Shown here: positions 21,568 through 25,408 of the stretch, piece after piece | Numbering within the stretch: position 1 is the stretch's first letter | Layout: each line of letters opens with the position of its first letter | From: a virus | Length of the DNA: 31,435 nucleotides | Virus record (IMG/VR): IMGVR_UViG_3300009183_000246 | Coordinates: 1-31,435 of that record | Direction: 5' to 3' (one strand) | Notes under the pieces: model-generated | What the model saw: the letters and a program-made list of their open reading frames with translations, nothing else | Database searches by the model: none | Told to the model about the DNA's origin: nothing | Position numbers and translations under genes: made by a program

Positions 21568-22596
21568 TCAAAATGGTAATTTATTCTCGTTTGCTATTCT
21601 TATTTTTTCACTCGTTGACATTAATTCAGGTATATTTTCGAACTTTATTTTAGTTGGAAATTGGTTAGAAATTTTCACCTCTTTATTTCTTTGCCCATAA
21701 ATTTTATTCCCGTAAATATCTTTCATGTAATATTGATATTTTTCAACGTCCAAATATAATTTATAAGTTCCATTTTTTGATACGCCCTTTGGTTTACTTT
21801 TAGCAACTTTTAAATGTACTTCGTTTTCTGCGTAGATATTTCCATCTCGATCGATTAAACCCGCAGGAGGTCGCCACATTATTAAAACAGTCAATCCTTT
21901 ACGAAACCAAACCTGCCCTCCTGCAAAGTCGCGAGCCGTTGGCATCGGATAAAATGTTTGTTCATTTTGTGTTATTGGTGCCTGATCTCGAACATGGTTA
22001 ATAATACAATTGTGTCTTTTGCTTTTACGTGCGTTTTTTCGAGCCATTCCTAATATTCTACTCAAATATTTGTCTTCGCGTCCTAAATCCGCTTGTATAT
22101 ATTCCTCGGTTAACTCATTCCACGGATCAACCGTAGTCGTGTTAATTGTTATTTCGTGCGTTTTTTCAATCTCATCGACTAATTTGTAAAAATTTTCAAG
22201 TGTTAAATCTTCGTCTATTGGATCCACGACAATAAAGTGATCGTTAACAAACATTTCAGCCGTTATTTGTTCGCCTTGACTCATCGAAAATTCTCCTATT
22301 GTGTACGGTTTCCCGATATATTTATGACAAAGTTCTGAATAAACTTCGGCTGCGCTTCCTGTTTCAGGTGAAAAAATTACATGTTTCCAACCGTGTAAAC
22401 AACTTAAATTAATTAAGAATTCGAACCAAATTTCAGTTTTTCCACTCGCTGGCGCTGCTCCTATGTAAGTTGTGCAACCTTCTTTTACGGTGTAAGGTAA
22501 TTGTTCAAAGTCCCATCCTATGGATTTTCCACGTACATTTTTTATATTGCGAATATTGTTTAATTCAGGTTGTAATTCGCTTAGTCTTTTATACAT
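21568..22596 (-). CDS. DnaB/RecA-type replicative ATPase
   Basis: A 342-residue RecA-fold ATPase. Walker A is GAAPASGKTE (46-55); the region after it (HVIFSPETGSAAEVYSELC) and the later INTTTVDPWNEL and RKSKRHNCIINHVRD resemble the helicase domain of DnaB/T7-type enzymes. It lacks the DnaB N-terminal domain and primase. ARDFAGGQVWFRKGLTVLIMWRP near the C-terminal third is the usual DnaB-like end. Probably the phage replicative helicase, loaded by the preceding gene product. Starts two bases after the preceding gene stop. Confidence 0.88.
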   Translation of the reverse strand: MYKRLSELQPELNNIRNIKNVRGKSIGWDFEQLPYTVKEGCTTYIGAAPASGKTEIWFEFLINLSCLHGWKHVIFSPETGSAAEVYSELCHKYIGKPYTIGEFSMSQGEQITAEMFVNDHFIVVDPIDEDLTLENFYKLVDEIEKTHEITINTTTVDPWNELTEEYIQADLGREDKYLSRILGMARKNARKSKRHNCIINHVRDQAPITQNEQTFYPMPTARDFAGGQVWFRKGLTVLIMWRPPAGLIDRDGNIYAENEVHLKVAKSKPKGVSKNGTYKLYLDVEKYQYYMKDIYGNKIYGQRNKEVKISNQFPTKIKFENIPELMSTSEKIRIANENKLPF

Positions 22597-22597
22597 T

Positions 22598-23203
22598 TTA
22601 TTCGTGTATTATAGGATTTACGTAAACCAAACCTTGTTTTGTAGTGTCAAATCCATATTTATCAATTATATCGGTTCTACTGAAAAATTCAGGGGTGCAA
22701 TATTGATAATTATTTTCTTTATGGTGCGTATTTTCTTTGCAGTTAATTATAGCGTTTGTAATTTGCTTTTTTTCGTAGCCTTGTTTTAATAGTGATTTGT
22801 ATTTTGATTTAATTTTATCATTCATTACTTGAAAATTTCTACCAAAACACAAATTAATAAATTCAAGCAACGCTTGGTAATCTATTTGCTCTTTCTCTTT
22901 CTCTTTCTCTTTCTCTTTCTCTTGTACCGGAGGGGCTAAAATACCCCCTACCGAACCCCCTTCCGTAGGGTCTTCAATAGGTGTATTTATTTTCTGTTTT
23001 GTTTTGTCTTCGTATCCTTTAATTTGTGCATCAATCGAATGTTTTTGAGAAACGTAGGCGAACTTAACAAGCCCAGTTAATTCAACCTCGACCCCTGTAA
23101 ATTGACGCATTAATAAAGCATCGTAAAACGCTAAACGATCTTTGTCATTTAATTCGTTTGCAATTTCCCAATAGCTACGATAAAAGTTAAATGCTTTTCT
23201 CAT
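22598..23203 (-). CDS. Replication initiation protein (DUF6291 plus phage C-terminal domain)
   Basis: A 201-residue protein with two parts. Residues 1-75 (FNFYRSYWEIANELNDKDRL onward) match the DUF6291 type; residues about 110-190 (NDKIKSKYKSLLKQGYEKKQ, then YCTPEFFSRTDIIDKYG) match the conserved C-terminal domain of phage replisome organisers (Phg_2220_C-like). A disordered Pro/Gly linker with five Lys-Glu pairs separates them; it is encoded by a hexanucleotide repeat. Placed just before the helicase, as expected for an origin-binding helicase loader. The ATG overlaps the preceding gene by 4 nt. Confidence 0.87.
   Translation of the reverse strand: MRKAFNFYRSYWEIANELNDKDRLAFYDALLMRQFTGVEVELTGLVKFAYVSQKHSIDAQIKGYEDKTKQKINTPIEDPTEGGSVGGILAPPVQEKEKEKEKEKEQIDYQALLEFINLCFGRNFQVMNDKIKSKYKSLLKQGYEKKQITNAIINCKENTHHKENNYQYCTPEFFSRTDIIDKYGFDTTKQGLVYVNPIIHE
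22889..22923. repeat. Hexanucleotide microsatellite in the replication gene
   Basis: The unit ctcttt occurs nearly six times in tandem on the plus strand; on the coding strand it encodes alternating Lys and Glu in the linker. The unit length of six keeps the reading frame when copies are gained or lost, so the linker length can vary without inactivation. Confidence 0.9.
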
Positions 23204-23403
23204 GGTTTAACGCATTGAATGTTTTTAACCTGAATTAAAACGCGGTAATCCTGTTTAACACCGGTTGCCCGTTCCATTGTTTTTAATTCTGAATTTTCAG
23301 CTGTTAATTCTAACCAAATTTTTTCAAGTAAAATTAACCCTCTAATTTGCCGATAAGTTTCTTTGACGTTTATAACGCCATCCATTAAAATAATTTTTGC
23401 CAT
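23200..23403 (-). CDS. Hypothetical protein, 67 aa
   Basis: A 67-residue protein, helical in the middle (RGLILLEKIWLELTAENSEL) with short strands at each end. No family recognised. It is the first gene after the structured RNA element and terminator (23423-23505), so its expression depends on read-through of that element. Its stop overlaps the start of the replication protein gene, so any control acting here would also act on replication. Confidence 0.7.
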   Translation of the reverse strand: MAKIILMDGVINVKETYRQIRGLILLEKIWLELTAENSELKTMERATGVKQDYRVLIQVKNIQCVKP

Positions 23404-23419
23404 AATAATAATTTTTAAG

Positions 23420-23505
23420 CATAAAAAAAACCCTTTAGCGTTCGGGTGCAGCCTACTAACTAAAGAGTTTTAACTCAAATTTCTATAAGTTCCTGCACGA
23501 ACCGT
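23420..23505 (-). ncRNA. Candidate structured RNA with kissing loop
   Basis: Starting a few bases after a promoter, the minus-strand RNA can form a 4-bp hairpin (GTTC/GAAC, 23502-23489) whose six-base loop GTGCAG is an exact complement of CTGCAC (23451-23446) in the 21-base loop of the terminator hairpin that follows. A longer alternative pairing joins GTTCG-TGCAG with CTGCA-CC-CGAAC. A third small hairpin (GAGT/ACTC) competes with the base of the terminator stem. This fits either a short regulatory RNA of about 85 nt or a leader that controls read-through into the replication genes. Confidence 0.5.
23423..23469 (-). terminator. Intrinsic terminator of the structured RNA
   Basis: Minus-strand 10-bp stem with one G-U pair (23469-23460 with 23438-23429), a 21-base loop and eight T. 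It lies between the tiny-gene block and the replication genes. The unusually long loop carries the sequence complementary to the upstream hairpin loop. Confidence 0.8.
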
Positions 23506-23508
23506 TTA

Positions 23509-23535
23509 CAAATATACAAATTATTTTTTAATCAA
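23509..23535 (-). promoter_or_regulatory. Promoter of the structured RNA
   Basis: TTG (23535-23533), 16 bases, TATATTTG (23516-23509) on the minus strand: a consensus -7 element with a slightly short spacer. It overlaps the end of the 44-residue gene. Transcription would start right at the first hairpin of the RNA element. It does not share the extended sequence of the other early promoters. Confidence 0.65.
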
Positions 23536-23662
23536 ATTCATTATTAATACAATTTCTGAATATTTTTCTTTTGTAGTTTTGCCAAATTCGGTTATTTCGA
23601 ACCGTTAAACTACTGAAATGGTAACGAGTTAAATTCCTTCTTACTTTCATTCTTTTTTTCAT
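23528..23662 (-). CDS. Tiny, very basic protein, 44 aa
   Basis: A 44-residue protein with about 13 Arg/Lys, starting MKKRMKVRRNLTRYHFSSLT. Its ATG overlaps the stop of the preceding gene as ATGA. No family recognised. The composition fits a nucleic-acid-binding peptide. It is the last gene of the overlapping early block. Confidence 0.6.
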   Translation of the reverse strand: MKKRMKVRRNLTRYHFSSLTVRNNRIWQNYKRKIFRNCINNEFD

Positions 23663-25126: not shown

Positions 25127-25408
25127 TTAGCGTTTAAATTTATTTAAAACAAATTTTACTATTCTTTTTGCGATAATTTTCCATAACGCCCCGCTGGTTT
25201 CAACTTTTACATCGATTCCTGAATCTGTTTTTTTAATATCAATGTCAATATTTTTACTATCGTATTTAAACTCTTTGTTTAAATCGTCTTTTAATAAATG
25301 TATATCGACGTTTTTAGTATCTAAATCAATTTTGATATTGGTTCCGTCCTTTTCCAAATTCAGATCAACGTTTTTAGTGTCAATTTTTACCGTTTTTTTC
25401 TTTGCCAT
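25127..25408 (-). CDS. Repeat protein with cationic C-terminal helix
   Basis: A 93-residue protein. Three copies of a 20-residue unit start at 10, 30 and 50 (DTKNVDLNLEKD, DTKNVDIHLLKD, DSKNIDIDIKKTD): alternating polar and hydrophobic residues as in a beta sheet or solenoid. The last 20 residues (ALWKIIAKRIVKFVLNKFKR) would form a strongly cationic amphipathic helix like membrane-active peptides. No signal peptide. It is the last late gene, 5 nt after the L,D-transpeptidase-like gene and before the terminator, so a role in lysis or membrane disruption is attractive. No family recognised. Confidence 0.75.
   Translation of the reverse strand: MAKKKTVKIDTKNVDLNLEKDGTNIKIDLDTKNVDIHLLKDDLNKEFKYDSKNIDIDIKKTDSGIDVKVETSGALWKIIAKRIVKFVLNKFKR

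Follow-up and report, generated by a model that had tools for sequence, protein, structure and literature searches.

A leader or terminator RNA with a hypervariable kissing loop pair, predicted ahead of phage replication operons

Our analysis of a viral DNA of 31,435 nt (hereafter the window, meaning this whole stretch at its full length) revealed a putative leader/terminator RNA on the minus strand with an unusual hypervariable kissing loop. Neither Rfam nor the literature searched contains its family. We propose, with a probability of roughly 0.55, that this kissing-loop terminator serves as a promoter-proximal attenuator of the replication operon and would also release a stable RNA of ~80 nt. 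The main genes of the 31.4-kb window are likewise read on the minus strand. The promoter occupies positions 23535–23509 and the RNA about 23505–23423, with the replication operon directly downstream. The features are as follows.

23509–23535, minus strand: promoter, TTG-16-TATATTTG, recognised by sequence (TTG at 23535–23533, 16 nt, TATATTTG at 23516–23509).
23488–23503, minus strand: predicted 5′-terminal hairpin H1, stem GGTTC/GAACT, loop GTGCAG (23498–23493), which by covariation kisses the terminator loop.
23472–23487, minus strand: A/U-rich single-stranded linker of 16 nt (11–19 nt in nearly all relatives, 17% G+C overall).
23427–23471, minus strand: terminator hairpin, lower stem AAAACTCTTTAGT/GCTAAAGGGTTTT (arms 23471–23459 and 23439–23427).
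23457–23454 opposite 23443–23441, minus strand: loop E-type internal loop of the terminator, AGTA opposite GAA, recognised by sequence.
23451–23446, minus strand: terminator apical loop CTGCAC on the apical stem GG/CC, recognised by sequence and covariation.
23423–23430, minus strand: T-tract of the intrinsic terminator, whose 5′ half pairs with A's of the lower stem.
23528–23662: 44-aa ORF on the far side of the element from the replication operon.
23200–23403, minus strand: 67-aa ORF without a family match, first gene of the downstream operon.
22598–23203, minus strand: DUF6291/phage replication-initiator-like protein, 201 aa (PF19808 and phrog_428 matches).
21568–22596, minus strand: primase/helicase-like replication protein, 342 aa (phrog_239, phrog_5482).

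The original prediction, made from the letters of the window, had described a promoter, a hairpin with the loop GTGCAG and a terminator carrying CTGCAC, and had placed them before the replication genes. All of these parts were found on the minus strand, and the RNA lies immediately 5′ of the replication operon. The “21-base terminator loop” of that prediction does contain CTGCAC; it is not an unstructured loop, being composed of an internal loop, a mini-stem and the apical loop. TTG-16-TATATTTG is a promoter of the Bacteroidota type. Since a −7-like element ends 2–7 nt before the H1 arm in 47 of the 52 distinct RNAs, transcription is expected to start at the foot of H1, which would be the 5′ end of the transcript. 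Three other promoter-like sites of the window (19231, 16005 and 15300, minus strand) share parts of the TATATTAAnAATTTAgnTTAAATTTG pattern and stand directly before genes without such an RNA; they are perhaps a second promoter class of the same phage. Two repeats were also observed within genes: a CTTTCT-type tandem repeat (22886–22923) that encodes a EKEKEKEKEKEQ linker within the replication initiator, and a 37-bp repeat (25285–25381, two copies 60 bp apart) that gives repeated lysine/aspartate-rich segments in a 93-aa gene.

Taken by itself, the window sequence provides weak evidence. A 6-base loop match is expected at ~16 × 4^−6 (0.4%), and the minus-strand fold energy of the element is not unusual (z −1.36). 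The covariance model R2 matched positions 23427–23502 of the minus strand with 77.4 bits, the window RNA being part of its training set. Despite these weak single-sequence statistics the element was accepted as real, because its relatives share the architecture and have covarying loops.

The relatives were gathered by an IMG/VR scan with the 201-aa protein, which gave 80 loci, 76 of them with upstream sequence. Comparison showed the predicted structure, loop-loop pairing, promoter spacing and position to be common to them: the element was present in 74 of the 76 viral loci having a related replication gene and upstream sequence. Our element finder demanded a loop match; the rate was nevertheless not produced by the search, because the loci had been chosen by protein and just two were left without an element, both confirmed by eye as truly lacking it. 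The terminator ends 5–28 nt before the next ORF in most loci and 45–49 nt in others; in the window, 19 nt separate the last T of the T-tract from the next start codon. The cultured Flavobacterium columnare phages FCL-2, FCV-11, V186 and FCOV-S2 carry the element, as does L128, a metagenomic relative of FCL-2, and in FCL-2 the terminator ends just a few bases before the start codon of gp54. L084/L126 possesses a different replication initiator and the element is present there too, so that the same layout is found in unrelated phages (FCL-2, FCV-11, L128 and L084).

No such element was seen by eye in the ~200 nt upstream of the related replication gene of Riemerella phages, and other Bacteroidota phages with a similar promoter sequence (hemulen6-1, Cellulophaga phi18:1) have no such RNA. 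A search of plasmids with one RNA allele gave no match. Chromosomes were examined through the protein, in a scan of 84,980 genomes of bacteria and archaea that found one locus, in a MAG contig. At one of the two element-less loci (L076:3889-3992), a promoter-like TATCTTTG stands in place of the element. Behind it comes a stretch that may be structured: GGTAG...CTACC precedes a T-run, with CCGAGTT...AACTCGG around it. The folding energy of this stretch is not unusual. A similar element with a ATGGACGC loop and an 8-bp match was observed at L120:7696-7798, in a contig filed under a Rickettsiales MAG, an assignment that may be binning contamination. It does not precede the replication gene of that contig; it lies ahead of a gene cluster leading to a terminase-small-subunit-like ORF, and its homology is uncertain given its shorter terminator and longer linker. 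The replication-gene match in OQ791282.1 (Shigella phage Henu10) has the same coordinates as that in a Riemerella phage record, and the former is possibly mislabelled.

The H1 and terminator loops are hypervariable yet mutually complementary, with 29 different terminator apical loops among the distinct RNAs. The pairs of 6–7 nt include GTGCAG/CTGCAC, GAGCAG/CTGCTC, AGGCAG/CTGCCT, GTTGCAG/CTGCAAC and GGACAG/CTGTCC. Further pairs are GCTTCGAC/GTCGAAGC, GGTCTCAC/GTGAGACC, GCTCCTAC/GTAGGAGC, CATCCGAC/GTCGGATG and GCGTAGGA/TCCTACGC, and cultured phages have CATCCAC/GTGGATG and GTAGAGAG/CTCTCTAC. FCOV-S2 comes nearest to an exception, with 7 paired bases out of the 8 in the loop. Pairs were counted on two alignments, one for each of the size classes A and B. 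Both kissing helices, of 8 bp in class B and of 6 bp in class A, were 100% paired. In class B, 6 of 8 pairs showed double compensatory changes; in class A it was 3 of 6 pairs, the remaining three being invariant. In neither class did any of 500 shuffles reach the covariation score of the whole structure, while the number of further pair types in class A was not above chance (125/500 shuffles). Class B loops paired at 74% when their partners were swapped, versus 100% for the true partners. Hairpins were also sought blindly, without regard to the loop match, and complementarity of 6–9 nt was recovered in 43 of 51 RNAs; in the others the finder mostly picked a hairpin of the promoter region, and the matching pair was found once the search was steered to the RNA. 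The compensating changes that the original prediction had set as its test are thus clearly found among relatives, and two hairpin loops of covarying complementarity identify the element as a putative kissing-loop RNA. A DNA operator palindrome at H1 was also considered and rejected, as it is unable to explain covariation with a loop ~50 nt off.

Above the lower stem, the terminator consists in order of an internal loop, an apical stem of 2–6 bp and the kissing loop. The internal loop is AGUA opposite GAA in the window and in about half of the distinct RNAs, and in four RNAs this motif is flipped. Most other RNAs have UGAA/GGAU or other tandem-GA-like internal loops, and a few have pyrimidine loops. 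T box leaders have been described with AGUA/GAA as their loop E/S-turn consensus (PMC4695836), and by this sequence match the internal loop is predicted to be a motif of the loop E (bulged-G, S-turn) kind. Four size classes at least were distinguished: class A, with 6–7 nt on both sides; class B, with an H1 loop of 8+6 and an apical loop of 2+8; class C, the L018 type; and class D, found in FCV and L128. Taken alone, the terminator hairpin folds stably (median −17.4 kcal/mol over 52 RNAs), and in each of these RNAs a T-rich tail follows it, as found in intrinsic terminators.

Two other pairings that had been thought possible in the window, a bulged 10-bp pairing (GTTCGTGCAG/CTGCACCCGAAC) and a competing small hairpin (GAGTT/AACTC), occur only in the window and its closest relatives. 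Both are lost in L006, L007 and L011/L012, where H1 is altered to ACCT/AGGT and the kissing loop is retained. No conserved alternative (antiterminator) structure was found among the relatives, the window's competing hairpin not being kept.

The total height of the terminator hairpin is near-constant (16–20), the lower stem, internal loop and apical stem trading off against each other. Its variance was 1.16 versus 6.11 for independent parts, a result reached by none of 10,000 shuffles, with L120 omitted as an outlier and with a partly arbitrary split between stem and internal loop. The constancy may come partly from common descent and from the parsing. Together with the linkers of 11–19 nt, the single element per genome and the occurrence of the 8-mers almost always only as the two arms, the near-constant height suggests that the kiss would form within one molecule, on a fully formed terminator.

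Based on this comparison, we propose the following course of events. Polymerase would start at the phage promoter, and the first nucleotides would fold into H1. Past the short linker the terminator hairpin would form, and its apical loop would pair with the H1 loop of the same molecule, the kiss locking an ~80-nt RNA with both ends protected. Most polymerases would be released at the T-tract, in most phages 5–28 nt before the start codon of the operon, and the fraction that reads through would make the replication initiator and helicase. The element would in this way set or switch the amount of replication proteins. With promoter and first start codon on opposite sides of the terminator, every transcript of the operon must cross it, and it is this cis arrangement that favours a leader or attenuator. 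That the loops pair within one molecule, that the kiss tunes termination and that read-through is regulated are what we infer, and for the last no conserved antiterminator was found. The terminator should work without the kiss, which may instead serve RNA stability, and the terminated RNA may itself act.

This last possibility leads to the main rival of the attenuator, a stand-alone small RNA. In that case the ~80-nt molecule would be the product, with an effect in trans on some target of the phage or host (as a decoy or by binding a protein, for instance), and its location would merely give early timing. Its own promoter at a fixed distance, the 5′-terminal hairpin, the strong terminator and the compact fold are the design of a stable sRNA. 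It is swapped as a unit between promoter and T-tract, and the similar element of L120 is not before the replication gene there. However, the coupling to the replication operon is tight and near-invariant in unrelated phages, there is no long conserved single-stranded seed (the linker is merely A/U-rich), and the loops that pair are hypervariable. We regard this explanation as possible, though on the unlikely side.

In several pairs of related phages the RNA differs between near-identical flanks. L030/L031 and L032/L034-L036 match at 91–93% upstream and 98% downstream, versus 69–70% in the RNA. The corresponding upstream, downstream and RNA values are 85, 92 and 66 for L047/L054 versus L050, which involves a change of class; 93, 85 and 62 for L039 versus L060; and 82, 85 and 61 for L048 versus L049/L052. 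In two aligned pairs the changed stretch runs from just past the promoter to the T-tract, and similar RNA alleles recur within different flanks. The cultured phages FCL-2 and FCV-11 have the upstream gene and promoter in common but not the RNA, and their downstream operon also differs. These replacements show the predicted RNA to be a module, whose letters would be replaceable wholesale provided that the pairing is kept. Since phage mosaicism is common at these loci, the exchange is no proof of selection for diversity.

Such exchange is also what a type-specific recognition RNA, acting in homotypic exclusion or copy control, would lead one to expect. The RNA of one phage would recognise, in a co-infecting phage, a leader whose loop letters are identical and would lower the replication operon behind it, so that rare types are favoured and alleles turn over. 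The repeated replacement between near-identical flanks, the similar alleles in different flanks and the FCL-2 and FCV-11 pair all agree with it; ordinary mosaicism could account for the swaps as well, and the difference in the FCL-2/FCV downstream operon weakens that example. Moreover, each loop already has its partner in the same molecule, and whole 8-mers have almost no second complementary site. The 8- or 9-base loop word was found only as the two RNA arms in 11 of the 12 genomes having one. With covariance models of the two main classes, 21 genomes were searched and 18 gave a single element each; the other three, two class C genomes and FCL-2, were reached weakly or not at all by the models, yet the element is present there. 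Loop words elsewhere in the 21 genomes were neither avoided nor enriched overall (431 observed, 435 expected). GTGCAG is absent from the window outside the element, but given this count we did not retain loop-word avoidance. No integrase was found in the 21 records, and no integrase or repressor was named among the window proteins scanned; the phages look lytic, which also speaks against recognition. We therefore consider it doubtful that the exchangeable loop pair is a self-recognition tag by which the terminated RNA of a lytic phage attenuates the replication operon in co-infecting phages that share its type.

Very improbable, in our judgement, is a role at a replication origin near the initiator gene, where the transcript would prime DNA replication and its structure would control primer release. 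The element adjoins replication genes in 74 of the 76 loci, but it ends in an intrinsic terminator, the GC skew has one sign throughout the window and does not switch at the element, and no iterons were found around it. We give slightly less credence still to a pRNA-like RNA, several copies of which would join through their loops into a chain or ring that serves packaging or some structural purpose. The pRNA of phi29 does join two distinct complementary loops between molecules (PMC7357161); the near-constant hairpin height and limited linker fit intramolecular pairing, and it is replication genes, rather than packaging genes, that the element precedes. That the terminator is an ordinary one whose loop matches by chance, as the weak single-sequence statistics might suggest, is practically negligible as an explanation: covariation already refutes it, with 29 distinct terminator loops that have matching partners.

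The attenuator that we prefer resembles several known systems in part. In the prophage state of P4, transcription of the replication genes is ended by an antisense RNA that acts at separate sites (PMC4825925). The P4 CI RNA with seqA and seqC, and the c4 antisense RNA of P1/P7, are likewise phage small RNAs tied to premature termination upstream of replication genes. However, the P4 CI RNA pairs in trans with the separate seqA and seqC, whereas here both partners lie within one ~80-nt RNA, whole 8-base loops lack a second site in nearly all genomes, and the phages have no integrase. A P4-like trans target was accordingly rejected, only one genome having a second site for the whole 8-mer, and a P4-type prophage immunity RNA is unlikely with one copy per genome and no integrase. 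The finding of the one bacterial or archaeal locus in a MAG contig also gives such a scheme no support. T box and other terminator-based leader attenuators and riboswitches share with this RNA a leader ending in an intrinsic terminator, the AGUA/GAA loop E and a long-range contact (PMC4695836). Unlike them, it has no tRNA-binding domain, conserved ligand pocket or conserved antiterminator, its contact loops are variable, and it belongs to Bacteroidota phages. The phi29 pRNA is also a phage RNA of two hairpins with distinct complementary loops; it pairs between molecules in the packaging motor, whereas the geometry here suggests intramolecular pairing and the RNA stands before replication genes (PMC7357161).

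The original prediction had recognised no known riboswitch class here, and no Rfam family was matched. In Rfam 15 nothing scored above the gathering threshold for the window or eight relatives, and with permissive settings the window element and FCL-2 found weak matches only, and L035 none. RT-14 RNA (RF02921) aligned weakly over the terminator region of the window (23.5 bits, E 0.4; gathering score 48.1) and was rejected; the related RNAs tested gave no match to it. A 2010 list of 104 bacterial motifs names several Bacteroidetes motifs (PMC2864571), which were compared here as far as they are in Rfam. No published description of the element was found in the literature searched.

The structured RNA family added by our results shows very strong covariation between its loops. 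It is common in phage contigs of the Flavobacterium type and also occurs in cultured phages that infect a fish pathogen. To our knowledge, little is known of transcription control in Bacteroidota phages. The family provides a natural series for studying the effect of a tertiary contact on intrinsic termination. It also poses the question why a whole regulatory RNA is swapped between otherwise similar phages. If the self-recognition tag were true, the loop letters would constitute a superinfection or copy-number system kept diverse by selection.
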